DNA from: Pleurocapsales cyanobacterium LEGE 10410
Lineage (GTDB): Bacteria; Cyanobacteriota; Cyanobacteriia; Cyanobacteriales; Xenococcaceae
DNA length: 36,839 nt
NCBI GenBank assembly: GCA_015207195.1
Contig: JADEXJ010000054.1
Span: 1-36,839 of the forward strand
Direction: 5' to 3'
Of the stretch, positions 1,443 through 34,488 are shown in pieces. The stretch's first letter is position 1, and each line of letters begins with the position of its first letter. Under the pieces are notes generated by a model, which was not told the origin of the DNA, ran no database searches, and was given only the letters and a program-made list of their open reading frames with translations. Both the position numbers and the translations under genes were made by a program.

Positions 1443-1475
1443 AGATTAAAAAAAAACTTTGAAGAACTTATGAGG
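1443..1475 (-). promoter_or_regulatory. Island promoter, copy 1 (YHYH lipoprotein)
   Basis: On the minus strand CCTCATAAGTTCTTCAAA (1475 to 1458), 9 nt, then TAATCT (1448-1443) as a -10-like hexamer. A start near 1436 would give a leader of about 70 nt to the ATG at 1364. Confidence 0.7.
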
Positions 1476-1647
1476 AAAAATTAAACCGAGTGAAATAAAG
1501 CTTTTTTCCTAGATTTTGATTCCTGCTTCTATCGATTTTCATTTTAGTATCTGCGACAATCGCCCCATGAGTAACATTATTTTTGTAGAGCGTTTAGTTT
1601 AGTGTGATAAGGCGGTTGATGTAATTATTCAATCAGTTAGATGTTTA

Positions 1648-1806
1648 GAAACTGTTTGTAAAGCAAATATCAAGGCTAAAGAAGTGGGGAAGTAGAGGAG
1701 GTAGAGGAGATAGGGAAGTCCCCCAATACCTCAATACCCCAATACCCCAATACCCCAATTGCCCTATCACTCTTTCAATTTAATATGAGTGTTTACAAAC
1801 AATCTC
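1648..1806. mobile_element. MITE-like element, 159 bp
   Basis: The ends are inverted: GAAACTGTTTGTAAA (1648-1662) and TTTACAAACAATCTC (1792-1806), 13 of 15 positions complementary. The element is flanked by TTA on both sides (1645-1647 and 1807-1809), a candidate 3-bp target duplication of the TNA type used by some IS5-family groups. It has no coding capacity. The interior contains purine-rich AGAGGAGGTAGAGGAG and the octamer repeat at 1722-1761. It lies 22 bp upstream of promoter copy 2. Confidence 0.45.
1722..1761. repeat. Octamer tandem repeat CCCAATAC x5
   Basis: Five units of 8 bp: CCCAATAC, CTCAATAC, CCCAATAC, CCCAATAC, CCCAATTG. This resembles the short tandemly repeated repetitive sequences of cyanobacterial intergenic DNA, although those are usually heptamers. 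It lies inside the MITE-like element. Confidence 0.8.
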
Positions 1807-1828
1807 TTAATCTCTTTTCCTATAACTT

Positions 1829-1861
1829 GCTCATAAGTTCTTCAAACTGTTGTTTTAGTTT
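1829..1861 (+). promoter_or_regulatory. Island promoter, copy 2 (hsp20-dnaK unit)
   Basis: GCTCATAAGTTCTTCAAA (1829-1846), 9 nt, TAGTTT (1856-1861). It is unusually far, about 300 bp, from the Hsp20 start codon at 2148, implying a leader of about 280 nt. Confidence 0.65.
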
Positions 1862-1867
1862 TTATAA

Positions 1868-2147
1868 AGAGATGTTCGCCAAACCCGATACTAGTTATTG
1901 CACGAACATCAAATAAGAATTTGTGGAGAATGAAGTCTATGACTGCAACTCGCGCACCGCCAAATTTAATAACCATAGTTTTGCTGAATTACTCCACAAA
2001 AGAGAGATATCTCAATTGGTAGAAGTAATGAATTGGCTTTAACCAGAATTCAGCAAATAATTCAATATTCATAAGTTGATTTGTTTTTCAACTTGCTCTC
2101 GACTTGAAGTTAAAAAAATTAATTACTCAATTTAGGAGACAAAGATC
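1868..2147 (+). other. Long structured leader upstream of first hsp20
   Basis: Between promoter copy 2 and the GTG start there is no convincing gene. Two perfect inverted repeats are visible: GATGTTCG (1871-1878) with CGAACATC (1903-1910), almost at the predicted 5' end of the transcript, and TTTGTGGAG (1920-1928) with CTCCACAAA (1992-2000). A 30-codon ORF (ATG 1930, stop 2020-2022) lies inside the second repeat, but its AGG-like sequence is too close to its ATG to be persuasive. The stretch could be a regulatory 5' UTR, an RNA thermometer, or a separate small RNA. The Shine-Dalgarno for Hsp20 is TAGGAG at about 2133. Confidence 0.35.
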
Positions 2148-2585
2148 GTGGCTCTAATACGTTGGCAACCTTTACCAGAAATCGACAGCTTACAAAGAGA
2201 AATGAACCGTATGTTTGATAGTCTTGCCCCAAAACAAACCGACAGACTAACTTCTGACTTTATGCCTGCTGCCGAAATAGAGGAAACCCCCGAAGCAATC
2301 AACCTCAAATTAGAAGTACCAGGCATGGATGCCAAAGACATCGATATTCAAGTTTCGGCTGAAGCTGTCTCCATCTCTGGAGAACGCAAAGAAGAAAATA
2401 AAACTGAAGAAAAGGGTATGACCAGAAGCGAATTTCGCTATGGTAGTTTCCGTCGCGTAATTCCTCTACCTGCACGGGTGCAAAATACTGATGTTAACGC
2501 CGAATATAAAAACGGAATGCTCAATCTAACTCTGCCCAAAGCTGAAGAAGAGAAGAATAAAGTCGTCAAGGTTAATGTCGGTTAA
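2148..2585 (+). CDS. Small heat-shock protein Hsp20 (first copy)
   Basis: The 145-residue protein starts with GTG after a TAGGAGAC ribosome-binding site. It has a short N-terminal arm (IRWQPLPEIDSLQREMNRMFD) and an alpha-crystallin domain (about residues 42-140), with the conserved LKLEVPGMDAKDIDIQV and the closing NGMLNLTLPKAEE strand. The arm and domain match the class A-like bacterial small heat-shock proteins (cyanobacterial HspA/Hsp17 type). These ATP-independent holdases form large oligomers, bind unfolding proteins and hand them to DnaK. The dnaK-dnaJ-cbpM genes follow directly. It is close to the second Hsp20 of the window (11356-11823), so the two are paralogues. Confidence 0.95.
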   Translation: MALIRWQPLPEIDSLQREMNRMFDSLAPKQTDRLTSDFMPAAEIEETPEAINLKLEVPGMDAKDIDIQVSAEAVSISGERKEENKTEEKGMTRSEFRYGSFRRVIPLPARVQNTDVNAEYKNGMLNLTLPKAEEEKNKVVKVNVG

Positions 2586-2597
2586 TTCTCTCCTCTC

Positions 2598-2625
2598 ACG
2601 CGATCTGTAGCCTAACGGATCGCGT
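2598..2625 (+). other. Hairpin between hsp20 and dnaK
   Basis: Perfect 8-bp stem ACGCGATC / GATCGCGT with a 12-nt loop. No T-run follows, so it is more likely an mRNA-stabilising or processing hairpin than an intrinsic terminator. Confidence 0.4.
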
Positions 2626-2767
2626 AATCGACCTGTTGTTAGGTAGATTGAGGTCTTAATCGTAATAACTCGAAGCGCAACCATCGGGTTTCTAAAATTA
2701 TATTTTTCCTTTAGCCAGAGTAGAAACTCGATAATTTTAAATTACAAATATCAAGGAGATAAATCTA

Positions 2768-4663
2768 ATGGCAAAAGTAGTTGGTATAGATTTGGGAACT
2801 ACCAATTCCTGCGTCGCCGTCATGGAAGGAGGTAAGCCTACAGTTATCGCTAACTCAGAGGGTCAAAGAACTACACCCTCTGTGGTAGCTTACACTAAAA
2901 ATAAAGAAAAGTTGGTCGGACAAATTGCCAAACGTCAGGGGGTAATGAACCCCCAAAATACTTTTTATTCCGTAAAACGCTTTACTGGGCGAAAATACGA
3001 CGAAGTTGCCACAGAACTTACCGAAGTTTCTTATAATGTGATGCGGGATGGCAATGGTAATATCAAGCTTAATTGTCCTATCTTAGACAAGCAGTTTGCT
3101 CCCGAAGAAGTTTCTGCCGAAGTGTTACGTAAACTCGCCGATGATGCTGGCTCGTATTTAGGAGAAAAAGTTACTCAAGCCGTAATTACTGTTCCTGCTT
3201 ACTTCAACGACTCTCAACGTCAAGCTACCAAGGATGCAGGTAAAATTGCTGGTTTAGAGGTGCTACGTATTATCAACGAACCCACAGCAGCAGCCTTAGC
3301 ATACGGACTGGATAAGAAAGCTAATGAAACCATCCTCGTATTTGACTTGGGTGGCGGTACATTTGATGTGTCCGTCTTAGAAGTAGGAGATGGGATATTT
3401 GAAGTTAAAGCAACCAGTGGTGATACTAACTTGGGTGGTGACGACTTTGATAAAAAAATCGTCGATCATCTTGCTGAGGAATTCAAGAAAAATGAAGGAA
3501 TCGATCTTAGAAAAGATAACCAAGCCTTACAACGTCTGACAGAGGTAGCCGAAAAAGCCAAAATCGAATTATCTAATGCCACACAAACCAATATTAATCT
3601 GCCCTTTATCACTGCTAGCCAAGATGGACCGAAACATCTGGATATGACATTAACCAGGGCAAAATTTGAAGAGATGTGTGCGGATTTATTAGATCGTTGT
3701 CGCATCCCCATAGAACAAGCTCTCAAAGATGCTAAACTCAGCAATTCGGATATTGATGAAGTAGTCCTCGTGGGTGGTTCGAGTCGGATACCTGCGGTAC
3801 AGGATTTAGTACAACGCATCATTAACAAAAAACCCTGTCAGGGAGTTAACCCCGATGAAGTAGTTGCTGTTGGTGCGACAATTCAGGCTGGAGTGCTGGC
3901 AGGAGAAGTCAAAGACATACTGCTACTCGATGTTACTCCTCTATCTCTAGGGGTAGAAACCCTCGGTGGCGTAATGACCAAACTCGTTCCCCGCAACACT
4001 ACAATTCCCGTACAGAAATCGGAAGTTTTCTCTACTGCTGCGGACGGACAAACTAATGTCGAAATCCACGTTCTGCAAGGGGAACGGGAAATGGCGAATG
4101 ATAACAAGAGTTTGGGTACATTTCGTCTTGACGGTATTCCTCCCGCACCGCGAGGTATGCCCCAAATAGAAGTAACCTTCGATCTTGACGCTAACGGTAT
4201 GCTTTCGGTTTCGGCAAAAGACAAAGCAAGTGGTAAACAACAGTCTATTACTATCACTGGTGCTTCTACTTTGGATGACAAAGAAGTCGATCGCATGGTT
4301 AAAGATGCTGAATCCCATGCCGAAGAAGACCATAAACGTCGAGAACAAATCGATACTAAGAATATGGCAGAGTCTTCTGCTTATCAAGCTGAAAAACAAC
4401 TCAAGGATTTGGGGGATAAAGTTCCTGAAGCCGATAAAACTCGCGTTGAAGGCTTAATTAAAGACCTGCGCGAAGCAGTAAACCAAGAAAATAGCGATCG
4501 TATGAAATCTCTTACCGAAGAGCTACAGAAAGCTTTAATGGAAGTAGGCAGCGCAGTCTACTCTCAAGCTGCTGCTAGTGCAGGCGGTAGTAATAGTGAT
4601 AATGGTTCTAGCGGTGGTAGCTCAGAGGACGTGATTGATGCCGATTTCGTAGAGAGTAAATAG
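2768..4663 (+). CDS. dnaK: Molecular chaperone DnaK (Hsp70)
   Basis: The 631 residues are full length for bacterial DnaK. The nucleotide-binding domain starts with [19 protein letters not shown] and contains the second Hsp70 signature [15 protein letters not shown]-like ([20 protein letters not shown]) near residue 195 and [14 protein letters not shown] near 335. The interdomain linker [13 protein letters not shown] is at about 385-400, followed by the substrate-binding domain and helical lid; the C-terminus ends [11 protein letters not shown]. Among the several cyanobacterial Hsp70s it looks like the DnaK2 type. It lies 182 bp after Hsp20 and 73 bp before dnaJ. The ribosome-binding site is AAGGAG about 10 nt before the ATG. 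No copy of the island promoter lies directly in front, so it may be read from the Hsp20 promoter. Confidence 0.97.
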
Positions 4664-4681
4664 ATATTAGGGAGATATTAA

Positions 4682-4704
4682 GGGGCAATCAATTTGATTG
4701 CCCC
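4682..4704 (+). other. Strong hairpin between dnaK and dnaJ
   Basis: The 10-bp stem GGGGCAATCA / TGATTGCCCC has a 3-nt loop and flanking AAG/CTT extension. The following bases are CCTTACCC rather than a T-run. It could attenuate transcription or define the dnaK mRNA end; the dnaJ ribosome-binding site AAGGAGGTG follows about 15 nt later. Confidence 0.5.
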
Positions 4705-4736
4705 CTTACCCATAATTAAGGAGGTGAAAGCAAACA

Positions 4737-5741
4737 ATGCCAGCAACCGATTTTAAAGATTACTACAAGATCTTGGGAGTGGACAAAACAGCCACCTCCG
4801 AAGAAATCAAAAAAGCCTACCGCAAACTAGCCAGAAAATATCACCCCGATCTCAATCCTGGAGATAAAGGAGCAGAACAGAAATTCAAGGAAATTAACGA
4901 AGCTCAAGAGGTGCTATCCGATCCCGAAAAACGGTCTAAATACGACCAGTTTGGTCAATATTGGCAACAAGCTGCTGCGGGAAGCCCACCACCAGGGGCT
5001 GGAGTCAATAGTGGGTCTGATTATAGTCAGTATGGTAGTTTTGATGACTTTATTAACGAACTTCTCGGGCGCTTTGGCGGTCAGGCTAGAAAAGGCTCTA
5101 GCGGGCAAAGGGTCTACAGTTATCGTACTTCTAGCCCTAAAACTGGAGGTTTCGGTGGTTTTGAAGATGCATTTGGGGCTGGAGGTTTTCAACCAGAAGT
5201 TCCCGCAGCCGATACTGAGGCTGCTATTACCCTGACTTTTGCTGAAGCCTTTCAAGGAACGCAAAAACGCTTTCAACTAGACGGGGAAACCATTAATGTG
5301 CGGATTCCTCCAGGAGCAAAACCAGGTAGTCGCATTCGTATCAAAGGTAAAGGTCGCACCAGTCCTTTTAATCAACAACGGGGAGATTTATATTTAACTA
5401 TCGATTTACAGCCTCATCCTTTATTTAAGTTTGAAGAAGAAAATATTGTTTGTGAAATTCCTATTACTCCAGAAGAAGCTGCTTTGGGCGCAGAGATTAA
5501 AATTCCCACTCCTGAAGGCAGCGTCTCTATGAAAATCCCTCGCGGGGTAGATTCAGGACAATCTTTACGCCTGCGAGGTAAAGGATGGCGCGGATCTAAA
5601 GGCAAACGCAGCGACCAAATTGTCAAGTTAAAAATTGTTACTCCCAAAGAATTGACTCCCCAAGAACGGGAGTGTTACGAAAAACTCCGTCAAGCCAGTA
5701 GTTTTAATCCACGTCGCAGCATCGAGGAGGTGCGTTTATGA
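4737..5741 (+). CDS. DnaJ-family co-chaperone, zinc-finger-less (CbpA type)
   Basis: The 334-residue Hsp40 has an N-terminal J domain (about residues 6-73: [21 protein letters not shown]) with the catalytic HPD tripeptide at about 36-38. A Gly/Ser-rich region follows (about 80-150), then two C-terminal beta domains (about 160-320). The CXXCXGXG zinc repeats of classical DnaJ are absent, making it a type II / CbpA-like protein. It stimulates DnaK ATPase and delivers clients. The start is supported by a strong AAGGAGGTG site. Its stop codon overlaps the next start (ATGA at 5738-5741), so it is translationally coupled to the CbpM-like gene, the same arrangement as cbpA-cbpM of enterobacteria. 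Confidence 0.93.
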
Positions 5742-6043
5742 AGTCAATGAGTTTATCGCGGATAGTAGTTTCTTCAAAAGGCGATCGCCTGATTACTTTC
5801 CAACAAGCTGCTTACCTCACCCAAACTTCAGTAACTATCTTAGAACGCTTTACCGATTTAGGTTTGATTGAACCCGTAGAATCGATGCTGCGATTGTCAG
5901 ATTTAACTCGCGTTATGCAGGTTATGCGACTGCGAAGGGATTTGGGGCTAAATCTAGTTGGTGCAACGATCGTCTTGGATATGGGAAACGAAATTGCCCA
6001 ACTCAAAGCACAAATAAAAGCTTTACAACAACAGAGATTGTAG
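5738..6043 (+). CDS. CbpM-like chaperone modulator
   Basis: The 101-residue protein has a MerR-like helix-turn-helix core ([30 protein letters not shown], about 19-48) and a helical C-terminal region ending [13 protein letters not shown]. This is the layout of the CbpM/MerR_2 family, which binds the J domain of CbpA-type co-chaperones and tunes their activity; DNA binding is not expected. The 4-bp ATGA overlap with the preceding DnaJ-type gene strongly supports a partner role. It ends 6 bp before the stop codon of the convergent gene at 6050-6340. A stand-alone transcriptional regulator is the alternative reading. Confidence 0.8.
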
Positions 6044-6049
6044 TTCATA

Positions 6050-6340
6050 TCACAAAAGAGCAAAAAATAGAGCAATAATTATTCCACTAATAAAAAGAGC
6101 AAACAGCAGCGCATTTTCAACTCTGCGGTTGATTAACCCGACAATAGCAAGAACGCCAGCGAGCAAGATAAAAATAAAAATATATTCTTCGGTTTGCAGT
6201 CTCTTCGGTAGAAGAAGAGAATCTTGAGAGTCTTTTTTAATAACTCTTTGAGAAAATTTCTGATTCGATCTGTTAATTAGTTCTATTTTCTTAGAACTAG
6301 AAGAGCGGAGTGTGCTTCGATCCTTACTGCTTAATGCCAT
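6050..6340 (-). CDS. Small two-helix membrane protein, unknown function
   Basis: The 96 residues comprise a polar, basic, Ser-rich N-terminal half and two hydrophobic segments (about residues 53-69, FIFILLAGVLAIVGLIN, and 75-96, ALLFALFISGIIIALFFALL) separated by a short NRRVEN turn. No family is recognised. A good ribosome-binding site (AAAAGGAAATCT before the ATG) supports the start. It is the only host gene on the minus strand between 2 and 35.5 kb. Promoter copy 3, degenerate but correctly spaced, lies immediately upstream, which supports it being a real gene that shares the island's regulation. Confidence 0.65.
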   Translation of the reverse strand: MALSSKDRSTLRSSSSKKIELINRSNQKFSQRVIKKDSQDSLLLPKRLQTEEYIFIFILLAGVLAIVGLINRRVENALLFALFISGIIIALFFALL

Positions 6341-6369
6341 AGATTTCCTTTTAGCCCGTTCAGTTTAGA

Positions 6370-6402
6370 AGTTTAGGGATTCAAGATGAGGACTTTATGA
6401 AG
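6370..6402 (-). promoter_or_regulatory. Island promoter, copy 3 (degenerate)
   Basis: On the minus strand CTTCATAAAGTCCTCATC (6402 to 6385), 9 nt, TAAACT (6375-6370). The 18-mer differs from the consensus at several positions, but the CYTCATAA-N3-CYTCA skeleton and the exact -10 spacing are kept. The start would be near 6363, about 22 nt before the ATG at 6340. Confidence 0.5.
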
Positions 6403-6504
6403 CTTTGATTCAGTTCTCTTTAAATCGATCGATAAACAGTCGATTCACTAAGTTGACCAGCTATTATCTCGATACCAAACATTCAATTATCTTTGGAAAT
6501 ATTT

Positions 6505-6537
6505 CCTCATAAATCCCTCAAATTTCTGTTCTAGTCT
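6505..6537 (+). promoter_or_regulatory. Island promoter, copy 4 (flavoprotein unit)
   Basis: CCTCATAAATCCCTCAAA (6505-6522), 9 nt, TAGTCT (6532-6537). Two centre bases differ from the consensus. The segment 6505-6630 aligns with 11212-11335 in front of the second Hsp20. Confidence 0.65.
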
Positions 6538-6630: not shown

Positions 6631-6704
6631 AACCACCTATCTTTCTGCCTCGCAGGACTTTGTGTGGGTCGCATCGCTTTTTAAAAATTTCTAAACACAG
6701 AATT

Positions 6705-7682
6705 ATGAAATTGACTAAACAGGATATTCAACAATCTACAGCCAAAGTCTACGATACCATTGTGGTTGGTGGTGGAGCAGGTGGTCTTTCGGCAGGAATT
6801 TATCTACAGCGTTATTTACTCGATACTTTGATTATCGATAAAGGCAAAGCCCGCTCTTTTTGGATGCAAGAATTGCATAACTACTTAGGTTTACCTCCCG
6901 ATACTCCAGGGCGATCGCTCCTCAGACAAGGCAAAGAACATTATCTTTCTCTTGGTGGCGATCTTTTAGATGCTTACGAGGAAGAAATATTTGATGAAGG
7001 AGAAACTTTGACCGTTGGAGTAAAAGTTGGTCGTACCAAAAGTAAATATCATACCTTCCGTACTAAATATCTTATTGCTGCCAGCGGTATTATCGACTAT
7101 CTTCCAGCATTAGACAATATGCGTAATGTTTATGACTATGCGGGTTATAACCTCCACGTATGTTTGATTTGTGACGGTTATGAAATGGCAGATAAAAAGG
7201 TTGGGGTATTCGCTAGCAGTGCAGCAAATGCAGAAGTGATTTTTCCTTTAGGCTGGTTTACCAACGACATCACTTTGTTTACTCAAGGATTGTTTGAGGT
7301 AAATGAGGATCTACGAGGCAAATTAGAAACACGGGGCTACCAAGTTGAATCAACACCCATAAAGCAACTTGTAGGACAAGAGCATCAAATGACGGGAGTG
7401 GAATTAATAGACGAGCGAGTAGTTGAATTGGAAACAGGCTTAATTTCTATGGGTTCGCAATATCATTCCACTTACTTAGACAAGTTTGATTTAGAAAAGC
7501 AGGGAAATAATTTGGTTACAGATAAGATGGCTCGTACTTCCCACAAGCGTATTTTTGCTATTGGAGATTTAAAGGTAGGACTCAATCAGGTAGTAATAGC
7601 AGTAGCTGATGGAGCTTTGGCTGCAACTCAAATCTGGCGTGACGTTCGCCAAAGAATTCCTCACTATACTAAATCCGCTTAA
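6705..7682 (+). CDS. Thioredoxin-reductase-like flavoprotein with atypical NAD(P) site
   Basis: From the ATG at 6705 this is a 325-residue two-domain flavin disulfide reductase. The FAD Rossmann motif is VVGGGAGGLSAGIYLQR (residues 20-36), the active-site pair is C153-L-I-C156-D-G, and the C-terminal FAD motif is IFAIGDLKVGLNQVVIAVADG. The usual thioredoxin-reductase pyridine-nucleotide motif GGGDSA is replaced by GVFASSAANAEV (167-178), and no HRR-type NADPH-phosphate motif is seen, so the electron donor may not be NADPH. Cyanobacterial relatives include the DDOR and ferredoxin-dependent reductases. A TTG-initiated extension from 6660 is open but lacks supporting sequence. It is the first gene after promoter copy 4. 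Confidence 0.8.
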   Translation: MKLTKQDIQQSTAKVYDTIVVGGGAGGLSAGIYLQRYLLDTLIIDKGKARSFWMQELHNYLGLPPDTPGRSLLRQGKEHYLSLGGDLLDAYEEEIFDEGETLTVGVKVGRTKSKYHTFRTKYLIAASGIIDYLPALDNMRNVYDYAGYNLHVCLICDGYEMADKKVGVFASSAANAEVIFPLGWFTNDITLFTQGLFEVNEDLRGKLETRGYQVESTPIKQLVGQEHQMTGVELIDERVVELETGLISMGSQYHSTYLDKFDLEKQGNNLVTDKMARTSHKRIFAIGDLKVGLNQVVIAVADGALAATQIWRDVRQRIPHYTKSA

Positions 7683-7807: not shown

Positions 7808-8755
7808 ATGCTGAAACTTTTCAAGCTATCATTTAGTTTATTATGCACGTTGCTGTGTGTCGTCTTATTATTCGGAGTCATGGTTCTTCCCAGCTTTGCA
7901 GCTACTGACAGTCTGGGAGAAGGGACGCTAGTTAGTTTGGCTACGGTGAAGCAATCTGAGCTATCGGCTGAAACCTTACAAGAAGAAGTGACCAAAGCCC
8001 AAGAAGAGGCAACAGAAGCAGCACAGAGTTCGATCGACCCCGAAGCGATCGCCGCAGTAGAAGAAACCAAAAAAGCGATCGTGGCGATCGACAAAGGTAA
8101 GTTCCAAGATGCGATTCAAGCCTTGGAACTAGCAACTGGGAAACTAGATATTCTGTTAGCACGCAATCCCAAACTAGCATTTATACCCCTGAGTTCTATG
8201 GTGGAAGTTATTGATGTTGCACCTCAAGATAAGCAATCTCTCAAAATATTCCTCGATCGACTCCAAAGTGCTATCAATATTGAAGACTATCCAGCAGCAC
8301 GGGAAATTCTCGATAATCTGATTAGCGAGGTACGGACTAAAACAGTGAACGTACCTTTAGCTAGTTATACCGAAGCGATGAAAGATGCTGCTCGTTTATT
8401 GGATAACAAACAGCCAGAGGTTGCCAAAGCATTGTTGCAAACAGCTTTATCTACCTTAGTAATTACAGAAACAAATCGTCCCATTCCCATCATTAACGCC
8501 CAAACCGAACTAATAGGTGCAATTGCTCTAGCGCAAACAGATAAAGAGAATGCCATCAAATTAATGGAAAATGCTCGTCAAGATTTGCAGCTAGCCAAAG
8601 ATTTAGGTTACGCCAAAGGCGATCTTAAATATGTAGAACTAGACAAAATCATTGCCAGTATTGAGAAAAAAATCCGAATCAATGCTGATGTTGCTTCTGC
8701 CTTTGGTGAACTACAAGATGAGTTAACTAACTTTCTCGGTCGCGTATCTGCATAA
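7808..8755 (+). CDS. YfdX-family exported protein
   Basis: The 315-residue protein has a clear Sec signal peptide (hydrophobic stretch about residues 9-27, cleavage after PSFA-ATD). The mature part is helical, with repeats of the type KAIVAIDKGKFQDAIQALELATGKL and AARLLDNKQPEVAKALLQTALSTL, the pattern of the YfdX family. In Escherichia coli yfdX belongs to an EvgA-controlled acid-resistance region; its molecular role is unsettled. The ribosome-binding site is AAGAGG. It follows the flavoprotein gene by 125 bp with no island promoter between, so it is probably read through from promoter copy 4. An IS701-type insertion begins 55 bp after its stop. Confidence 0.82.
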   Translation: MLKLFKLSFSLLCTLLCVVLLFGVMVLPSFAATDSLGEGTLVSLATVKQSELSAETLQEEVTKAQEEATEAAQSSIDPEAIAAVEETKKAIVAIDKGKFQDAIQALELATGKLDILLARNPKLAFIPLSSMVEVIDVAPQDKQSLKIFLDRLQSAINIEDYPAAREILDNLISEVRTKTVNVPLASYTEAMKDAARLLDNKQPEVAKALLQTALSTLVITETNRPIPIINAQTELIGAIALAQTDKENAIKLMENARQDLQLAKDLGYAKGDLKYVELDKIIASIEKKIRINADVASAFGELQDELTNFLGRVSA

Positions 8756-8809: not shown

Positions 8810-10234
8810 CTGGACTTTCGGAAAAAAGTAAAAATAATGAGCCACAATCCTGATAGAGTAATAGTTGTACTTGAATAGCAGCTGCGATCGCCAGAATGAA
8901 AGAAACAACCCTGTCGGCGATGCCACCATGCTTTGAAAAATGGTGCGCCAAATTTGACGATTTATGGAAAAACCCAGGTCAAAAAAAGGGATTTCGTTAT
9001 TATTTAACAGGATTGCTGGGAGAAAGTAAACGCAAAAATATTGCTCAAATGACCGATAATATAATCGGTTCTTCGTATCATAATGTTCATCATTTTATTA
9101 GTAAATACAAATGGTCAACATCCTTAGTAAATGAACGTCGTTTGAAACTGATGGATAAGTGCAATCAGACTAGAATCAGAAATGGTTTTGCACTGATAAT
9201 CGATGATTCTGGACACAGAAAAAGTGGTAACTTTACTGATGGAGTGGGACGACAATATATTGGAGAAATAGGCAAAACTGACAACGGAATAGTGATAGTT
9301 ACGACTCATTTATATGATGGAGTCAGAAGTCTTCCTCTAGACGTTGAATTATATCAACATGCTGATTCATTACCCAAAGGAAAAGAAGATAAAAATTTTG
9401 TAAAAAAGCCAGACATAGCTCTAAAATTAATCAATAAAACAATAGAGAGAAAATATCATCCAGGAATTGTTTTAATCGATGGAGGATATGGGAATAATTC
9501 GACTTTCTTGAAGGAATTAGAAAAGCTTAGGCTCAATTATATTGGGGGATTGGCTAAGAATCGGCTGGCTAGTGTAATCAATCTAGAAACAGGAGAAAAA
9601 CCGTCAGAAAAAAGGTTAGATCAAATAATATTATCTTTGCCTAAAGAAAATTTTGAGGCGGTCACTTTAGAAATTGATAAACCAAAAACTGTTTGGGTAG
9701 CTACTATAAAAGCTGAGACTAATGGTCTTAAAGGTCAGAGAACTATCGCAATCGTCATGAATGCTAACTCTGTTGAAGAAGCTACTGAAATAGATTATTT
9801 AATTACGAATGAATCAGAAAATCAAGCAACAGGACAATGGATAGTTAAAACATTTTCAAATAGAAACTATATTGAAAAGTTTTATCGAGAAGCTAAAGGG
9901 TGCTTGGGCTTAAAAGAATATCAAACAAGAAAAAAAGAAGCTCTAATTCGTCATTTTATTTTAGTATTTACTGCTTACACTTTCATTATTTATCAGCAAT
10001 TAATGGGAGGACTAAGAAAACGTTATGCTAAGAAATCTTTAACGACTTTTGCTGAAACATTAGAAGCATTTTTAACAGGTATTTCTGACAATTTCTTGGG
10101 GTGGCTACAAAATAATATGGAACTGTTTGCCGAACATAAAGCCTGCCGAGGATTTGTCTGGGGATGAAATCAGGTTAAAGTTCTGCTCTACTTATCTTTA
10201 AAGAATTATCAGTTACTTTTTTCCGAAAGTCCAG
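8810..10234 (+). mobile_element. Complete IS701-family insertion sequence, 1425 bp
   Basis: Perfect 22-bp terminal inverted repeats (8810-8831 and 10213-10234; outer end CTGGACTTTCGG) bound a single transposase gene. The element is flanked by TTAG on both sides (8806-8809 and 10235-10238), a 4-bp duplication fitting the YTAR target of the IS701 family. Perfect ends and an intact ORF suggest a recent insertion. Confidence 0.93.
8896..10167 (+). CDS. IS701-family DDE transposase
   Basis: The 423-residue transposase catalyses cut-and-paste movement of the element. The likely catalytic acids lie in FALIIDDSGHRKSG (D103), VLIDGGYGN (D195) and NYIEKFYREAKGCLGL (E327 as the IE of the family motif). 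The following YQTRK and hydrophobic FILVFTAYTFIIYQQL segment are typical of the IS701/SRSO17 group. The ORF runs uninterrupted between the inverted repeats and is richer in A+T than the host genes around it. No clear Shine-Dalgarno sequence precedes the ATG. The element is probably functional. Confidence 0.93.
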   Translation: MKETTLSAMPPCFEKWCAKFDDLWKNPGQKKGFRYYLTGLLGESKRKNIAQMTDNIIGSSYHNVHHFISKYKWSTSLVNERRLKLMDKCNQTRIRNGFALIIDDSGHRKSGNFTDGVGRQYIGEIGKTDNGIVIVTTHLYDGVRSLPLDVELYQHADSLPKGKEDKNFVKKPDIALKLINKTIERKYHPGIVLIDGGYGNNSTFLKELEKLRLNYIGGLAKNRLASVINLETGEKPSEKRLDQIILSLPKENFEAVTLEIDKPKTVWVATIKAETNGLKGQRTIAIVMNANSVEEATEIDYLITNESENQATGQWIVKTFSNRNYIEKFYREAKGCLGLKEYQTRKKEALIRHFILVFTAYTFIIYQQLMGGLRKRYAKKSLTTFAETLEAFLTGISDNFLGWLQNNMELFAEHKACRGFVWG

Positions 10235-11211: not shown

Positions 11212-11244
11212 CCTCATAAGTTCTTCAAAGTTTTTTTCTAATCT
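11212..11244 (+). promoter_or_regulatory. Island promoter, copy 5 (second hsp20 unit)
   Basis: CCTCATAAGTTCTTCAAA (11212-11229), 9 nt, TAATCT (11239-11244). The 18-mer is identical to copy 1. Confidence 0.72.
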
Positions 11245-11355: not shown

Positions 11356-11823
11356 ATGGCTATTGTCCGTCATGACCCTTTTCGACAACTTTCTAATTGG
11401 GAACCTTTCCGAGAAATTGGCAGTTTACAACGGGAAATAAACTCCCTGTTCGATAGGCTCGCACCAAACTTCGATCGAGAACTTAGTGAATTTGCCTTTA
11501 CTCCTTCTGCTGAAATCAAGGAAACCGATGATGGAATTTGTCTCAAGTTAGAAGTTCCTGGTATGGAAGCTAAAGATCTAGATATTGAAGTAACCGAAGA
11601 TTCTGTTGCTATTAGTGGCGAACGCCAGGAAGAAACCAAGTCTGAGGAAAAAGGTATAAAACGCTCGGAATTCAGCTACGGTAAATTTGAAAGAATTATT
11701 CCGCTACCAGCTCGAATTCAAAATGACAAGGTAAAAGCTGAATATAAAAATGGTGTTTTGAATCTAACCATGTCTAAGTCAGAAGAAGAAAAGAATAAAG
11801 CTGTCAAAGTAGAAGTGAAATAG
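11356..11823 (+). CDS. Small heat-shock protein Hsp20 (second copy)
   Basis: The 155-residue protein has an N-terminal arm (SNWEPFREIGSLQREINSLFDRLAP) and an alpha-crystallin domain (about 48-150) containing LKLEVPGMEAKDLDIEV, FSYGKFERIIPLPARI and NGVLNLTMSKSEEEKNK. It is a close paralogue of the first Hsp20, with near-identical domain borders and C-terminal charge pattern; the arm is about ten residues longer. The ribosome-binding site TTGGAGAT precedes the ATG. It heads a unit of same-strand genes (membrane Cys protein, SDR, small helical protein, P2 ATPase) under promoter copy 5. Confidence 0.95.
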   Translation: MAIVRHDPFRQLSNWEPFREIGSLQREINSLFDRLAPNFDRELSEFAFTPSAEIKETDDGICLKLEVPGMEAKDLDIEVTEDSVAISGERQEETKSEEKGIKRSEFSYGKFERIIPLPARIQNDKVKAEYKNGVLNLTMSKSEEEKNKAVKVEVK

Positions 11824-16221: not shown

Positions 16222-16254
16222 CCTCATAAGTTCCTCAAACTGTCTTTGTAATTT
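16222..16254 (+). promoter_or_regulatory. Island promoter, copy 6 (H+-ATPase unit)
   Basis: CCTCATAAGTTCCTCAAA (16222-16239), 9 nt, TAATTT (16249-16254). It starts 30 bp after the P2 ATPase stop and implies a leader of about 70 nt to the ATG at 16330. Confidence 0.72.
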
Positions 16255-25239: not shown

Positions 25240-25272
25240 CTTCATAAGTTCCTCAAATTCATTTTCTATAAC
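25240..25272 (+). promoter_or_regulatory. Island promoter, copy 7 (ppsA-xfp-ackA unit)
   Basis: CTTCATAAGTTCCTCAAA (25240-25257), 9 nt, TATAAC (25267-25272). It starts 20 bp after the AarF stop, with a leader of about 65 nt to the ATG at 25344. Confidence 0.72.
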
Positions 25273-25343: not shown

Positions 25344-27845
25344 ATGGTCGTAACCGCAAATCGTCACAGCCAAACTCATCAGGATAAAGAACAAGCTTTA
25401 GTTCTCTGGTTTGAAGATGTAGTCATGAATGACGTTTCCCTTGTTGGAGGTAAAAATGCTTCACTAGGAGAAATGATTCAACAGCTAACACCCCAAGGAA
25501 TCAATGTGCCAGGAGGTTTTGCTACTACAGCTTATGCCTATCGCTATTTTATTCAACAGGCGGGATTAGAAACAAAGCTGCGCCAGCTATTTGCCGATTT
25601 AGATGTCGAAGATCTGAGTAATCTGCGATCGCGGGGCAGACAAGCCAGGGCATTAATCCTCAACACTCCTTTCCCTGAGGAATTAAATACGGCTATTACC
25701 GAAGCTTATAGTCAACTTTGCCAACAGCATAGTATAGACTTTTCCTATTGCGAACAGTTTGAAGGAGAAGAAAAAGAAGTCTGCAAAAAATATACTTACA
25801 ACGTCGATGTAGCGGTGCGTTCCTCGGCTACAGCCGAAGATTTGCCCGACGCTAGTTTCGCAGGACAACAGGAAACCTATCTCAACGTCCACGATATCCA
25901 GTGTGTGTTAGAAGCTTGTCATAAGTGCTTTGCCTCTCTGTTTACAGATCGGGCAATTTCTTATCGTACTATCAAAGGTTTCGATCATTTCGATGTGGCT
26001 CTTTCAGTTGGCGTTCAAAAAATGGTGCGATCGGATCTGGCAACTTCTGGGGTCATGTTCTCCATCGATACCGAAACGGGTTTTAAAGATGCAGCTTTAA
26101 TTACTTATGGTTTGGGGGAAAACGTAGTTCAGGGGGCGGTCAATCCCGATGAGTATATTGTCTTTAAACCAACTCTAAAAGAAGGATATAAGCCAATATT
26201 AGATAAACGTCTTGGCAGTAAAGAAATCAAGATGGTGTATGACGTTGGTGGTAGTAAATTAACAAAAAACGTACCTACTAGCCACCTAGAAAGAGTCGAA
26301 TATGCCATAAATGATGATGAAATCTTACAGCTAGCAAAATGGGCTTGTCAGATTGAAGATCATTATTCAAAAGTGCGTAATACCTATACGCCAATGGATA
26401 TTGAATGGGCAAAAGACGGTTTAACAGGAGAACTATACATTGTTCAAGCTCGTCCCGAAACCGTCCAGTCTCAAAAAAACGCCAATGTATTACAAACATA
26501 TAAATTAGATACTGCGGGAGATAATATCCTAACTACAGGTAGATCTGTAGGTGAAAAAATTGGCGCGGGTGTTGCCAGAGTCATCTTGGAAGTAACTGAC
26601 ATCGATAAGTTTCAATCTGGGGAAGTTCTAGTTACCAACAAAACTGACCCCGACTGGGAACCAATCATGAAACAAGCCAGTGCGATCGTTACTAATCAGG
26701 GGGGTAGAACCTGCCATGCTGCAATTATTGCCCGTGAAATGGGTATTCCTGCGATCGTCGGCTGTAATGATGCCACCAGTAATATTCAAACAGGACAAGA
26801 TGTCACCGTGTCCTGTGCTGAAGGGGAACAGGGCAAGGTTTATGCAGGTTCAATTCCCTTTACCGTAGAATCAATCGAGCTAGATAACTTACCTGAAACT
26901 AAAACTCAGATCTTGATGAACGTAGGCGATCCCGAATCGGCATTTGGATTGTCAGCTTTGCCCTGTGATGGCGTAGGTTTAGCAAGATTAGAATTTGTTA
27001 TCGCCAACCATATCAAGGTTCATCCTTTAGCTTTACTCAAGTTCGACGAACTACATGATAATAAAGAAAAAATGGCTGTTGCCCGTCAAACAGTTCACTA
27101 TCCCCATAAACCCGATTTCTTTGTAGATAAGTTATCGCGGGGTATCGCCACCATTGCAGCAGCATTCTATCCTAAGCCTGTAATCGTCAGGATGTCGGAC
27201 TTTAAGAGTAATGAATATGCGAATCTCTTAGGTGGAAAACAGTTTGAACCAAAAGAAGAAAACCCGATGCTGGGCTGGCGGGGTGCGAGTCGCTATTACG
27301 ATCCCAAATACCGCGAAGCCTTTGCCCTAGAATGTCAGGCATTTAAACGAGTCCGCGATGATATGGGTTTGACTAACGTTATTCCGATGATTCCCTTCTG
27401 TCGTACTCCCGATGAAGGACGTAAGGTATTGGCAGAAATGGCAAAACACGGACTGGTAAAAGGCGAAAACGGTTTGCAAGTATATGTCATGTGCGAACTT
27501 CCTAGCAACGTAATGCTGGCAGCCGAATTTAGCGAAGTATTTGATGGTTTCTCTATCGGTTCAAATGACTTGACTCAGCTAACTTTGGGACTCGATCGCG
27601 ATTCTGCTTTAGTCTCTCATCTATTTGACGAACGTAACCCAGCGGTAGAAGCCATGCTAACTATGGCGATCGCGGTAGCCAAACTTAAACACCGAAAAAT
27701 CGGTATCTGCGGTCAAGCACCCAGCGATTATCCAGAGTTTGCCGAATTCTTAGTCAAGGAAGGAATTAACTCAATCAGTCTCAATCCCGATTCTGTGCTT
27801 AAAACCAGACTGAAAATAGCTGAAGTAGAACAAAATATCGATTGA
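25344..27845 (+). CDS. ppsA: Phosphoenolpyruvate synthase
   Basis: The 833-residue enzyme converts pyruvate and ATP to PEP, AMP and phosphate. Domains in order: N-terminal PEP/pyruvate-binding ATP-grasp domain (VGGKNASLGEM, AVRSSATAEDLPDASFAGQQET), the swivelling phosphohistidine domain with GGRTCHAAIIAREMGIPAIVG (catalytic H458), and the C-terminal TIM barrel (GWRGASRYYDPKY, CELPSNVMLAAEF, GSNDLTQLTLGLDRDS, GICGQAPSDYPE with the catalytic Cys). It is about 40 residues longer than the E. coli enzyme, partly through an acidic Cys-containing insert (SYCEQFEGEEKEVCKKY) before the ATP-grasp core. It heads the fourth large unit under promoter copy 7. Confidence 0.96.
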   Translation: MVVTANRHSQTHQDKEQALVLWFEDVVMNDVSLVGGKNASLGEMIQQLTPQGINVPGGFATTAYAYRYFIQQAGLETKLRQLFADLDVEDLSNLRSRGRQARALILNTPFPEELNTAITEAYSQLCQQHSIDFSYCEQFEGEEKEVCKKYTYNVDVAVRSSATAEDLPDASFAGQQETYLNVHDIQCVLEACHKCFASLFTDRAISYRTIKGFDHFDVALSVGVQKMVRSDLATSGVMFSIDTETGFKDAALITYGLGENVVQGAVNPDEYIVFKPTLKEGYKPILDKRLGSKEIKMVYDVGGSKLTKNVPTSHLERVEYAINDDEILQLAKWACQIEDHYSKVRNTYTPMDIEWAKDGLTGELYIVQARPETVQSQKNANVLQTYKLDTAGDNILTTGRSVGEKIGAGVARVILEVTDIDKFQSGEVLVTNKTDPDWEPIMKQASAIVTNQGGRTCHAAIIAREMGIPAIVGCNDATSNIQTGQDVTVSCAEGEQGKVYAGSIPFTVESIELDNLPETKTQILMNVGDPESAFGLSALPCDGVGLARLEFVIANHIKVHPLALLKFDELHDNKEKMAVARQTVHYPHKPDFFVDKLSRGIATIAAAFYPKPVIVRMSDFKSNEYANLLGGKQFEPKEENPMLGWRGASRYYDPKYREAFALECQAFKRVRDDMGLTNVIPMIPFCRTPDEGRKVLAEMAKHGLVKGENGLQVYVMCELPSNVMLAAEFSEVFDGFSIGSNDLTQLTLGLDRDSALVSHLFDERNPAVEAMLTMAIAVAKLKHRKIGICGQAPSDYPEFAEFLVKEGINSISLNPDSVLKTRLKIAEVEQNID

Positions 27846-29046: not shown

Positions 29047-29078
29047 AGTTTGATTTGAAATAACTAGGAGAATTAATT

Positions 29079-29504: not shown

Positions 29505-31907
29505 ATGGTATCCATTTCCTCTACAGATTCAAAAACTGCCTTGACTATAGAAGAAGCTCGTAAAATAGATGCTTACTGGCGTGCCTGTAACTATCTAGCA
29601 GTAGGAATGATTTATCTACGAGATAATCCTTTACTTAAAGAACCGCTTCAGGCAAAACACATCAAGCAAAGACTATTAGGACATTGGGGATCGTCTCCCG
29701 CTCTCAGCTTTACCTATATTCATCTCAATCGTCTGATTAAGAAGTACGACCTCAATTCCATCTTTATCGCTGGACCTGGACATGGTGCGCCTGGAGTACT
29801 TGGACCTGTATATTTGGAAGGAACTTACTCCGAAGTCTATCCCGACAAAAGCGAAGACGAAGCGGGAATGCAGAAGTTCTTCAAACAATTCTCTTTTCCT
29901 GGCTATATCGGCAGTCATTGCACCCCCGAAACCCCTGGTTCTATTCACGAAGGGGGAGAACTAGGCTACAGTGTATCTCATGCCTTTGGTGCAGCTTACG
30001 ATAATCCCGATCTAATTGTTGCTTGTGTGGTGGGAGACGGAGAGGCAGAAACAGGTCCTTTAGCAACTGCCTGGCACTCAAATAAATTCCTTAATCCTAT
30101 CCGTGATGGGGCGGTACTGCCGATCCTTAACCTCAATGGTTACAAGATTGCTAACCCGACAATTCTGGCTCGCATTAGCTCCGAAGAATTAGAAAGTTTA
30201 TTTGAAGGCTATGGCTATACTCCCTATGTAGTTGAAGGTTCAGACCCCGAAACCATGCACCAAATAATGGCAGGAGTAATGGAAGAATGTGTTGTCAAGA
30301 TTCGAGAGTATCAGCAAGAAGCCCGTAGCCAAAATAAAGCCTTTCGCCCCAAGTGGCCCATGATAATTCTCCGCACTCCTAAAGGCTGGACGGGTCCTAC
30401 TGAAGTAGACGGACACAAGGTAGAAGGATTCTGGCGATCGCATCAAGTACCGATGGGAGGAATGCACTCCAACCCAGAACACGTAAAGCTTCTCGAACAG
30501 TGGATGAAAGGCTATAAGCCAGAAGAACTATTTGACGAGCATGGCAAGTTAATTTCTGAGTTAAAGGAATTAGCACCAGTAGGAATTAAACGCATGAGTG
30601 CTAATCCTGTGGCTAATGGTGGCTTACTGAGGAAAGATCTCAAACTGCCTGACTTCAAGGAGTACGAGATAAAAATGGAAGCGCCAGGAACACTAGAAGT
30701 GGAAAACACTAGAGTATTAGGTAAGTTTTTGCGGGATGTGATGAAGCACAATATGACTAACTTCCGCGTCTTTGGACCCGATGAAACTGCTTCTAACCGC
30801 CTACAGGATATCTACGAAGTTACTAAAAAAGCGTGGATGGCAGACTACTTACCAGAGGATGAAGATGGCAGTCAACTATCACCCGATGGTCGAGTTATGG
30901 AAATGTTGAGCGAGCATACCCTCGAAGGCTGGCTGGAGACTTATCTACTTACTGGCAGACACGGCTTTATCCACAGTTATGAAGCTTTTATCCACGTCAT
31001 CGACTCCATGTTTAACCAGCACGCCAAATGGTTAGAAATCTGCAAAAAGCACGTTCCCTGGCGCGCCCCCGTATCTTCTCTAAATCTGCTCCTATCTTCT
31101 TTGGTTTGGCGACAGGATCACAATGGTTTTTCCCATCAAGACCCAGGCTTTATTGATGTGGTAACAAATAAAAGTGCCGACGTAACGCGGATTTATTTTC
31201 CTCCCGATGCTAACTGTTTGCTGTCTGTCGCCGATCATTGCTTAAAAAGTAAAGACTATATCAACGTTATCATTGCCGATAAGCAAAATCACCTGCAATA
31301 CCTGACAATGGATGAAGCGGTAAAACATTGTACCAAGGGTATCGGCATCTGGGATTGGGCGAGTAATGATGACTGTGGCAAGGCAGCGGATGAACCCGAC
31401 GTAATTATGGCTTGCTGTGGTGATATTCCGACAATGGAATCTTTAGCTGCCACAGCGATATTACGCGAAGAGTTTCCCGAACTGAAAGTTAGGTTTATTA
31501 ACGTGGTCGATCTGTATCGTTTGCAGTCAGATCGCGAACATCCCCACGGCTTATCCAACAAAGAGTTTGATATCCTTTTCACCCCCGATAAGCCAATAAT
31601 TTTTAACTTTCACGGCTATCCCTGGTTGATTCATAAATTAGCCTACCGTCGCACTAATCAAGAGCGAATTCACGTCAGAGGCTATAAAGAGCAAGGTAAT
31701 ATCAACACTCCTTTAGAGCTGGCGATGCTCAACCAAATAGACCGCTTTAACCTAGTCATCGATGTCATAGATCGCGTGGAAAAACTTGGTTCGAGGGCGG
31801 TTTATGTTAGAGAGCGCATGAGAAACGATATTATCGACAATTTGGCTTATGCTCACGAACAGGGGATGGATAAGCCAGAGATTACCAACTGGAAGTGGTC
31901 TGAATAG
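29505..31907 (+). CDS. xfp: Phosphoketolase (xylulose-5-P / fructose-6-P)
   Basis: The 800-residue thiamine-diphosphate enzyme splits xylulose-5-phosphate (and often fructose-6-phosphate) with phosphate into acetyl-phosphate plus glyceraldehyde-3-phosphate or erythrose-4-phosphate. Visible motifs: AGPGHGAPG (about 90), [22 protein letters not shown], the ThDP/Mg motif [20 protein letters not shown] (about 175) through [20 protein letters not shown], and the C-terminal [19 protein letters not shown]. Length is normal. The acetyl-phosphate feeds acetate kinase two genes downstream. No good Shine-Dalgarno sequence is seen, only AAAAGAAAAA. Confidence 0.97.
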
Positions 31908-31914
31908 TTTTATA

Positions 31915-32613: not shown

Positions 32614-32670
32614 TTTAATTATGCTTTGTCTCTCATAATACTGCTTATGCCTAATAGAAAAGACCGAGTA

Positions 32671-33891
32671 ATGAATATATTAGTTCTAAACGCAGGCTCT
32701 AGCAGCCAAAAAAGCTGTCTTTATAGTCTTGAAGAACCTTTACCCACTGCTTCAAGACCATTATGGTCGGCTCACCTCGATTGGACGGTAGCGCGGTCGG
32801 GAGGTATTTTGACTGTTGAAAGTAACGGTATTAAACAGAAAATTGAAGTTCAAGAGCATGATACTGCTTTAACAGTTCTATTGAATACTCTAGTTCGGGG
32901 AGAAACTAAAGTTTTAGAGAGTCTTGAGGAAATCGATTTAGTTGGTCATCGAGTGGTACATGGTGGAGCAAAATATAGTCAGGCTACTTTGATTACCAAG
33001 GAAGTCAAAAAGGCGATCGCATATTTTATTCCTCTTGCCCCAAATCATAATTCAGCCCATCTCGAAGGTATAAATGCGATCGAAGAAATACTGCCCGAAG
33101 TACCTCAAGTAGCGGTGTTTGATACGGCATTTCACACAACACTTCCTGAAGCAGCAAAAGTTTATCCTTTACCTTACGACTATTACGAGAAGGGCATTCA
33201 GCGTTATGGCTTTCACGGTATTTCCCATGAGTATTGCGCTAACCGCGCTGCTCAAATTCTTCAGAAACCATTAGAATCTCTGAAAATTGTTACCTGCCAT
33301 TTAGGCAATGGCTGTTCTTTGGCTGCAATTAAAGATGGTCTTTGTATCGATACCACGATGGGCTTTTCTCCCTTGGAAGGCTTAATGATGGGTACTCGCT
33401 GCGGTTCAATCGATCCTCAGATTCCTATCTATTTGATGCAGGAATATGGCTTAGATGCCCAGGAAGTAAGTCATATATTAAATAAAGAATCTGGTTTGAA
33501 AGGGGTTTCTGGAATATCTGGAGACGTGAGAGCTATTTTAGAAGCAATCGCTCAAGGAAATGAACGAGCATCATTAGCCTTTGATATTTATCTACATCGC
33601 TTAAAAAGTTTTATAGGCGCAATGATCGCCACTCTAAATGGTTTAGATGTTTTAGTTTTTACTGCGGGAGTGGGTGAAAATTCAGCTATAGTTCGCGAAC
33701 AAACTTGTACGGGATTAAGCTATTTGGGTTTGAAGTTGAATTTAGATAAAAATAATACTAATCCTACCGATCTAAATATTGCTGCTGTTGACTCAACTGT
33801 AAAAGTGTTGGTAATTCATACTCAAGAAGATTGGGCAATTGCACAACAAGCTTACGCTATGAAAAATTACGATCGACTAATTTCATCATAA
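32671..33891 (+). CDS. ackA: Acetate kinase
   Basis: From the ATG at 32671 (MNILVLNAGSSSQK) this is a 406-residue acetate kinase; upstream in-frame TTG (32626) and ATG (32647) starts add non-conserved residues. ASKHA-fold motifs: NAGSSSQK, VGHRVVHGGAKYS, FDTAFHTTLPEAAKVYPLPYDYYEK, RYGFHGISHEY, TCHLGNGCSLAAIKDG, GLMMGTRCGSIDP and FTAGVGENS. It makes acetate and ATP from acetyl-phosphate and ADP, completing the phosphoketolase shunt; no phosphotransacetylase gene is in the window. Promoter copy 8 overlaps the end of this gene: the stop TAA (33889-33891) lies inside the CATCATAAGTTCCTCAAG element. Confidence 0.95.
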   Translation: MNILVLNAGSSSQKSCLYSLEEPLPTASRPLWSAHLDWTVARSGGILTVESNGIKQKIEVQEHDTALTVLLNTLVRGETKVLESLEEIDLVGHRVVHGGAKYSQATLITKEVKKAIAYFIPLAPNHNSAHLEGINAIEEILPEVPQVAVFDTAFHTTLPEAAKVYPLPYDYYEKGIQRYGFHGISHEYCANRAAQILQKPLESLKIVTCHLGNGCSLAAIKDGLCIDTTMGFSPLEGLMMGTRCGSIDPQIPIYLMQEYGLDAQEVSHILNKESGLKGVSGISGDVRAILEAIAQGNERASLAFDIYLHRLKSFIGAMIATLNGLDVLVFTAGVGENSAIVREQTCTGLSYLGLKLNLDKNNTNPTDLNIAAVDSTVKVLVIHTQEDWAIAQQAYAMKNYDRLISS

Positions 33892-33916
33892 GTTCCTCAA
33901 GTCATTCAATTAATCT
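33884..33916 (+). promoter_or_regulatory. Island promoter, copy 8 (overlaps ackA stop)
   Basis: CATCATAAGTTCCTCAAG (33884-33901), 9 nt, TAATCT (33911-33916). The start would be near 33923, about 21 nt before the ATG at 33944. Confidence 0.65.
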
Positions 33917-33943
33917 CAGAATATAGACAAGTATTGGAGATTA

Positions 33944-34426
33944 ATGATGAATATAGAGGAAAAAAGAGTAGTAAAAATGAGCTTCCCCTTTGGTCAATAC
34001 TTCGAGCAACTATTTGCTGCTGATACTTACGTTAGATTTATCAACCCGTTTGGCTTTTGGCGTAGATATAAAATCGAGCATTTGGAAACCTGTCGGGAGC
34101 TAGATACGGTGAAACATTTTGAAAATTGCCATCAGCTTGACTTGCAATCTGCCAGATCTATGAATCTTGGATCGAATGGATCGAATGAAGACTATACAGG
34201 CATTTTAAATAACATTCTAACCGAACAATCGGAGTCAAATAGAATTTATATTTCTCAGCCTAATATAAAACTGAAATATCGTGGCGTTAGTTATTACGCT
34301 AAAGATGTCCTCAGCATGAACATTACCGTCGTGCAAATCGATCCTGCCTCAGTTCAGACAAATAACTTCAAGCAACCAAACAACTCTCATAATACGAGTA
34401 GTCCAGAAACATTAAGCAACAATTGA
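33944..34426 (+). CDS. DUF4278-containing protein, unknown function
   Basis: The 160-residue protein ends with IKLKYRGVSYYAKD (about 107-120), the short signature of DUF4278, a small cyanobacterial domain of unknown role. The N-terminal part (FGQYFEQLFAADTYVRFINPFGFWRRYKIEHLE) is aromatic and basic and not otherwise recognised; the C-terminus is Asn/Ser-rich and probably disordered. A TTGGAGAT site precedes the ATG at 33944 (a second ATG follows at once). The short leader after promoter copy 8 and the next promoter right behind it make it a monocistronic member of the regulon. Confidence 0.7.
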   Translation: MMNIEEKRVVKMSFPFGQYFEQLFAADTYVRFINPFGFWRRYKIEHLETCRELDTVKHFENCHQLDLQSARSMNLGSNGSNEDYTGILNNILTEQSESNRIYISQPNIKLKYRGVSYYAKDVLSMNITVVQIDPASVQTNNFKQPNNSHNTSSPETLSNN

Positions 34427-34455
34427 TTATCATTTATAACTGCTAATCAAATAAT

Positions 34456-34488
34456 CCTCATAAGTTCTTCAACATCGATCGCTATTCT
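34456..34488 (+). promoter_or_regulatory. Island promoter, copy 9 (third hsp20 unit)
   Basis: CCTCATAAGTTCTTCAAC (34456-34473), 9 nt containing ATCGATCGC, TATTCT (34483-34488). Leader of about 57 nt to the ATG at 34552. Confidence 0.7.

Follow-up and report, generated by a model that had tools for sequence, protein, structure and literature searches.

In this article, I describe a repeated promoter element of Pleurocapsales cyanobacterium LEGE 10410, where it stands in front of chaperone, cation ATPase and fermentation genes on a stretch of 36,839 nucleotides (GenBank contig JADEXJ010000054.1; the whole stretch is called the window and is numbered C277 among the 392 contigs of a genome of 6.64 Mb). 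The full 18-mer box of this element reads CYTCATAAGTTCYTCAAA and is followed at a fixed distance by a hexamer resembling a -10 box. Its nine proposed sites, with the genes that lie behind each, are the following.

Site 1, 1443..1475 (-): box CCTCATAAGTTCTTCAAA, 9 nt, TAATCT; heads a YHYH-domain open reading frame (ORF), 195-1364(-).
Site 2, 1829..1861 (+): box GCTCATAAGTTCTTCAAA, 9 nt, TAGTTT; heads hsp20 2148-2585, followed by dnaK 2768-4663, dnaJ 4737-5741 and a MerR-like gene 5738-6043.
Site 3, 6370..6402 (-): degenerate box CTTCATAAAGTCCTCATC with 4 mismatches, 9 nt, TAAACT; heads a 96-aa ORF, 6050-6340(-).
Site 4, 6505..6537 (+): box CCTCATAAATCCCTCAAA, 9 nt, TAGTCT; heads a pyridine-nucleotide oxidoreductase gene 6660-7682, then YfdX 7808-8755.
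Site 5, 11212..11244 (+): box CCTCATAAGTTCTTCAAA, 9 nt, TAATCT; heads hsp20 11356-11823, followed by SDR 12373-13143 and a cation P-type ATPase gene 13439-16192.
Site 6, 16222..16254 (+): box CCTCATAAGTTCCTCAAA, 9 nt, TAATTT; heads an 80-aa ORF, followed by P-type ATPase 16739-19303, MgtC/DUF4010 19386-20663, acyl-CoA synthetase-GNAT 20705-23398 and ABC1 kinase 23547-25220.
Site 7, 25240..25272 (+): box CTTCATAAGTTCCTCAAA, 9 nt, TATAAC (not TANNNT); heads ppsA 25344-27845, followed by PNPOx-like, Usp and SpoIIAA-like genes, xfp 29505-31907, a phosphatase gene and ackA 32626-33891.
Site 8, 33884..33916 (+): box CATCATAAGTTCCTCAAG, 9 nt, TAATCT; heads a 160-aa ORF, 33944-34426.
Site 9, 34456..34488 (+): box CCTCATAAGTTCTTCAAC, 9 nt, TATTCT; heads hsp20 34552-34884, then a Germane-domain ORF 34914-35534.

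An earlier note on this DNA had counted nine copies, each exactly 9 nt from a TANNNT hexamer and each at the head of a transcription unit. Eight of them are good copies, but the one at 6402-6385(-) is weak, the mismatches to the 18-mer being, in order of site, 0, 1, 4, 2, 0, 0, 0, 2 and 1. A scan of the window for CYTCATAAGTTCYTCAAA with at most three mismatches returns nine matches against 0.30 expected, a number that none of 100 shuffles reaches; these are the eight good sites, the weak copy exceeding the threshold, together with a match at 29868..29885 (+) that has three mismatches, lies inside xfp without a -10 box and is rejected as a chance match outside the regulon. Reading the claimed places bears out the spacing in full, with TA exactly 9 nt past the element at 9 of 9 sites; the hexamer fits TANNNT at eight, TATAAC at 25240 being the exception. 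Every copy does lie upstream of a same-strand ORF, with 28-287 nt between the hexamer and the start codon of the longest ORF (site 8 begins inside the ackA ORF and shares its final 8 nt), but the membership of xfp, ackA and the P-type ATPases in these units presumes that transcription continues through genes of the same direction. Scans of the window for sigma-70 promoters and terminators stayed within two standard deviations of shuffles and do not delimit the units. Between the divergent sites 1 and 2 there is also a tandem 8-bp repeat (CCCCAATA-like, 1721-1767), and a DDE transposase ORF at 8896-10167 separates units of the island.

The element is an 11-bp direct repeat, CYTCATAAGTT followed by CYTCAAA, that ends 9 nt before the TANNNT -10; its consensus matches itself at lag 11 in 8 of 11 positions, which is reached by 38 of 5000 shuffled consensus sequences. 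A direct repeat of 10-11 bp upstream of a -10 is the kind of target that marks the OmpR/PhoB family, and by its layout the box is a putative OmpR/PhoB-type activator site. What the earlier note had called a bipartite promoter is better read as an activator box joined to an ordinary -10 than as a new kind of promoter. The sites of the window (T-class, TCATAA) have a sister class that reads TCACAA (C-class), with at least 33 further sites that are scattered over many contigs of the same genome and recur across the order. When aligned, 22 T-class and 33 C-class sites share CYTCA-N6-CYTCAA and the -10, and position 18, which lies outside the search pattern, is T in 91% of T-class and 94% of C-class sites; across many sites, good conservation is limited to the box and the -10. 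Searches of open-licence papers found no description of the box, although they returned papers about this family of regulators and about regulation by low oxygen, in agreement with the earlier note, to which no described motif of this sequence was known; the RppA regulon motif AAMAWCTCYYWCCCC, as given in the available part of PMC13421787, differs from the box by inspection.

The boxes are not confined to the island to which the earlier note had assigned its candidate regulon, and exact copies of TCATAAGTTCYTCAA number 15 in the whole genome, on C277 (7), C44 (5), C132 (2) and C282 (1); although this search was made without requiring a -10, TA stands at the fixed offset in 15 of 15 copies and TANNNT in 11 of 15. 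With the full pattern, 25 matches are found in the genome at one mismatch against none for the reversed pattern, and 97 against 35 at three mismatches. The placement of the copies supports the proposal of the earlier note: in stretches fetched from the genome, 80% of which are coding, 19 of 19 exact copies of TCATAANTTCYTCAA (TCAT) and 28 of 28 of TCACAANNTYYTCAA (TCAC) are intergenic with respect to ORFs of at least 100 aa, as are 43 of 44 TCAT and 6 of 6 TCAC copies in relatives. When ORFs of at least 70 aa are considered, 34 of 35 TCAC-class sites are intergenic and one lies inside a small ORF. The fetched stretches were picked via the full pattern, so that spacing counts within them are not independent of it. 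On the shuffles, the reversed-pattern controls and the intergenic placement, chance or a repeat artefact is rejected. Across the phylum, the TCAT-based pattern occurs with at most one mismatch in 55 of 386 genomes, a figure weaker than it appears: 34 of these belong to the window's own order (against 9 reversed), mostly with TCACAA forms and often with several per genome, whereas the 21 outside it (against 16 reversed) are at chance level. Boxes near relatives of the regulator described below do occur outside the order.

This candidate regulator is encoded at C44:26395-28266, divergent from the site at C44:26267, and is composed of a receiver, a winged helix, an Hpt domain and another receiver (Response_reg in two stretches, Trans_reg_C, Hpt). 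The combination of a receiver with a winged-helix Trans_reg_C domain is that of the OmpR/PhoB family, the DNA-binding domain (DBD) matches DrrD, CovR, BaeR and PhoB chains, and its position between two receivers is that of the RcaC/RfpB subfamily; the N-terminus is 55.8% identical to the regulator of the far-red light photoacclimation (FaRLiP) cluster of Fischerella NIES-4106. It is most likely this RcaC/RfpB-type response regulator that reads the box. Farther along the same contig, C44:57632-62371 encodes a CBS/GAF/PAS histidine kinase and then a single receiver, relatives of which lie near TCAT sites in the family genomes G395, G396, G399 and G402, and they are putative partners of the regulator. 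Near the end of C44, a phage-type integrase gene adjoins a RES-domain gene (L277:12948-14638).

Within the family, TCAT-type sites were counted within one mismatch in 27 genomes, some of them incomplete assemblies in which absences are uncertain. The present genome has 14 such sites, G395 has 10, G402 8, G396 7 and G399 5, and among the other 22 one has four, two have two, six have one and thirteen have none. An orthologue of the regulator with at least 80% identity occurs only in the present genome, G395, G396 and G399, on the cluster contigs (here C44), and G402 has a partial one whose C-terminal 512 aa begin a contig and adjoin a site; across the 27 genomes, then, the orthologue is found in exactly the five that have at least five sites. 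In Stanieria cyanosphaera PCC 7437, the TCAT sites and the regulator (WP_015212034.1) are both on plasmid pSTA7437.01, which is typed as conjugative and with which contig C4 of G396 shares the position of the regulator; the Stanieria island (L348) also holds psbA, a petC-type gene, ftsH, dps, L-lactate dehydrogenase and ppsA. The candidate regulon of the earlier note, defined by a shared and position-fixed element, is well supported by copies that are intergenic, far above chance and recurring beside a dedicated regulator in relatives. A search of genome contigs with five regulators yielded mostly unrelated OmpR proteins among the 80 loci listed, from which L129-L139 were used. Counting RcaC-type regulator genes with more than 300 bp upstream (n=108, with four duplicate-DBD loci and three genes with 300 bp or less excluded), a box lies within 760 bp upstream of 11 of 35 with a VRTH helix against 4 of 73 others (p=0.0006), and two of those four are RfpB-type.

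The same layout can be seen at FaRLiP clusters of Fischerella NIES-4106, G305, G174 and a Richelia metagenome-assembled genome, where ten sites of TTCATNAGTTNTTCA-N11-TANNNT (eight exact, two with one mismatch, and none for the reversed pattern) precede psbA/chlF-type, receiver and psbA-4/psaB-type units (L351, L355-L358, L131); the pattern was written after three Fischerella sites had been seen, leaving the other seven as the test, and G305 and Richelia are near-identical at these sites, so the independent part is smaller than ten. FaRLiP transcripts were not detected in rfpB mutants, which identifies RfpB as an activator (PMC4658448, available part). Taken together, the sites and the mutant data indicate that the box layout recurs at promoters whose activator belongs to the same regulator family, and the FaRLiP box is likely the RfpB binding site, as predicted here. 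The available parts of PMC4658448 (no 'motif', 'binding site' or 'direct repeat') and PMC6424891 (no 'motif' or 'direct repeat') do not give such a site.

Now considering the residues that would contact the box, the five orthologues have the recognition helix AVRTHIKTLR and the nearest sister rows VRTHIKGLR or VRTHVKGLR; HIKTLR regulators accompany TCATAA boxes, and sister HIKGLR regulators accompany TCACAA. The same G-to-T difference is found in the regulator on plasmid pA of Chroococcidiopsis sp. CCNUC1, whose two exact boxes are TCATAAC and which the tree places in a separate clade of 15 (support 99/95), the regulator from C44 belonging to a clade of 17 (100/99). T-for-G in the helix is paired with TCAT-for-TCAC in the box in two separate clades. 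Among the 30 best relatives of the Chroococcidiopsis regulator, four of which were already in the earlier set, the helix T is absent from 29 of 29 readable helices, and the 11 boxes found within 1450 bp upstream of ten of these relatives are all TCAC. Acaryochloris and Kovacikia plasmid regulators with G likewise lie in stretches with TCACAA-type boxes. Plasmid pMB02 of Acaryochloris 'Moss Beach' (L349), which has an RcaC-type regulator with TCACAA-type boxes, further carries hydrogenase and hyp genes, ATP synthase genes, ppsA and Usp. In G404, the hsp20 gene at L345:1415-1844 is 85% identical to the third one of the window (34552-34884) but is preceded by a TCAC instead of a TCAT box, and no orthologue of the regulator was found in this 82% complete assembly. 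From these comparisons, small changes in box and regulator seem to have evolved together.

As for the targets, the T-class genes of the window comprise three Hsp20 genes, DnaK, DnaJ, two P-type ATPases, acyl-CoA synthetase-GNAT, ppsA, Usp, xfp and ackA; on C44 they comprise glycogen phosphorylase together with an isoamylase-like gene, Usp proteins, a third P-type ATPase accompanied by a Na/H exchanger, a protease resembling HtrA, an HlyD/ABC operon, a kinase and receivers; and on C132 they are petC-like Rieske and psbA-type genes. The C-class genes encode Lon, Hsp20, CBS proteins, a radical-SAM activase-like protein, the hydrogenase large subunit, HypC, ppsA, pyruvate kinase, Usp, a nitroreductase-like protein and a sigma-70-family protein. 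The last of these, at L038:694-1760 on C282 and headed by a TCACAA-type site, is group-2-like as inferred from its domains and is a possible second control tier. The joint presence of fermentation, hydrogenase, glycogen use and protein protection genes points to darkness or low oxygen, and suggests that the regulon is a low-oxygen or dark stress response.

The explanation that I consider rather probable is that each site is an activator box with a core promoter, read by the C44-type OmpR-family regulator via a phosphorelay, and that the system is a diverged sister of the wider cyanobacterial TCACAA-box system. Each site would thereby combine a core promoter with a class-II activator site: a regulator dimer would sit head-to-tail on the 11-bp-spaced direct repeat and cover the -35 region, while an ordinary sigma factor of group 1 or 2 would recognize the TANNNT -10. 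The CBS/GAF/PAS histidine kinase and single receiver of C44 are the likely upstream parts of the phosphorelay, and the phosphorylated dimer would recruit RNA polymerase at promoters without a good -35, in the same way as PhoB does. Once phosphorylated, the regulator would activate genes for chaperones and cation ATPases, for enzymes of glycogen and of pyruvate/acetate fermentation and for Usp proteins, along with alternative psbA/petC-type genes, the inducing condition probably being low oxygen, darkness or energy stress.

Several observations weigh against this explanation. Nine genomes without the orthologue nevertheless have TCAT-type sites (the one with four, the two with two and the six with one), a box is missing immediately upstream of 24 of the 35 VRTH-type regulator genes, and the C46 regulator of the present genome, an expected reader of TCACAA, has no box on its 19.6-kb contig. 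The genome with four sites, G390, is 76% complete, and its sites, with no orthologue detected, are unexplained. The Acaryochloris stretch also has two weak TCAT-like matches, and the key residue of RfpB-type proteins is G although they adjoin TCATTAG-like boxes, which rules out a universal residue code and makes any such code context-dependent. A code would be founded on a small number of changes, namely two, the boxes known from the second lineage are likewise just two, and the low-oxygen interpretation has gene content as its sole basis.

Another, unlinked DNA-binding protein might read the box, the C44 regulator merely travelling with the island, and linkage alone could yield the co-occurrence inside the island, and the absence of a box directly upstream of 24 of 35 related regulator genes would fit this reading; I consider this to be unlikely, however, because the same box family adjoins RcaC-type regulators in several lineages and is found at FaRLiP clusters with a genetically known activator, and because a change of the helix residue coincides with one of the base in two clades. 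The 18-mer could also be the extended -35 of an alternative sigma factor that reads the whole 33-bp promoter without an activator, which would account for the rigid spacing to the -10 and for the C282 sigma-70-family gene with its TCACAA-type site, but the element is long and contains an 11-bp direct repeat, its variants track a winged-helix regulator and TANNNT is the usual -10, and this is about as unlikely. It is barely conceivable that the copies belong to some dispersed repeat or mobile element and have no regulatory function, for although two copy pairs in the window share longer stretches past the box (families D5 and D17), conservation over many sites is confined to the box and the -10, the copies of relatives are all but one intergenic and the orthologous hsp20 of G404 has the other box in the same place.

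Returning to the activator box read by a C44-type regulator, I would tentatively extend it, with some doubt, to an evolutionary proposal: RcaC/RfpB-type regulators across cyanobacteria may share one box architecture (11-bp repeat, 9 nt, TANNNT), and the recognition-helix change from HIKGLR to HIKTLR, matched by C-to-T at box position 4, may have divided an ancestral low-oxygen regulon into two that are insulated from each other. The derived regulon would then be a survival island that regulates itself, moves by plasmid and brings along a kinase, a regulator and targets of its own. The box described here supplies a large class of cyanobacterial multi-domain regulators, the FaRLiP activator RfpB included, with a predicted binding site, connects widespread genes for survival and fermentation with a single kind of two-component system, and offers a natural, apparently twice-repeated test of joint change in a regulator and its DNA site. 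In this cyanobacterial order, regulons can moreover be predicted by searching for a simple pattern.

Among known systems, that of RfpA, RfpB and RfpC resembles the one on C44 in having receivers that flank a winged-helix DBD, and it includes a partner histidine kinase and a single-receiver protein (PMC4658448, available part), of which the kinase and receiver of C44 are putative counterparts. The four FaRLiP clusters examined have the same repeat and spacing as the window boxes but different half-site letters, and the RfpB system differs in its phytochrome kinase and photosynthesis genes; the annotated ORFs of the window are stress and fermentation genes and not the far-red photosynthesis cluster that defines a FaRLiP regulon. 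RcaC is similarly an OmpR-type multi-domain regulator, and its L box is TTGCACA-N4-TTGCACA, repeats that the present box does not fit when compared by inspection. RcaC binds promoter boxes and activates or represses according to box position (PMC8256508, available part). This chromatic acclimation system differs in the letters of the L box, in its light control and in its genes. The Pho box of PhoB of Escherichia coli consists of an 11-bp direct repeat that lies some 10 bp ahead of the -10, and the winged-helix DBD of PhoB is related by sequence to that of the C44 regulator (1gxp, 1qqi, 3t72). Box letters, regulon and signal are nevertheless different in the PhoB system. Lastly, the DosR-type dormancy regulons of actinobacteria carry a cargo of Usp, Hsp20, P-type ATPase, nitroreductase and CBS genes similar to the one described here, but DosR is a NarL/LuxR-type regulator with another binding site, and the likeness is a functional analogy only.

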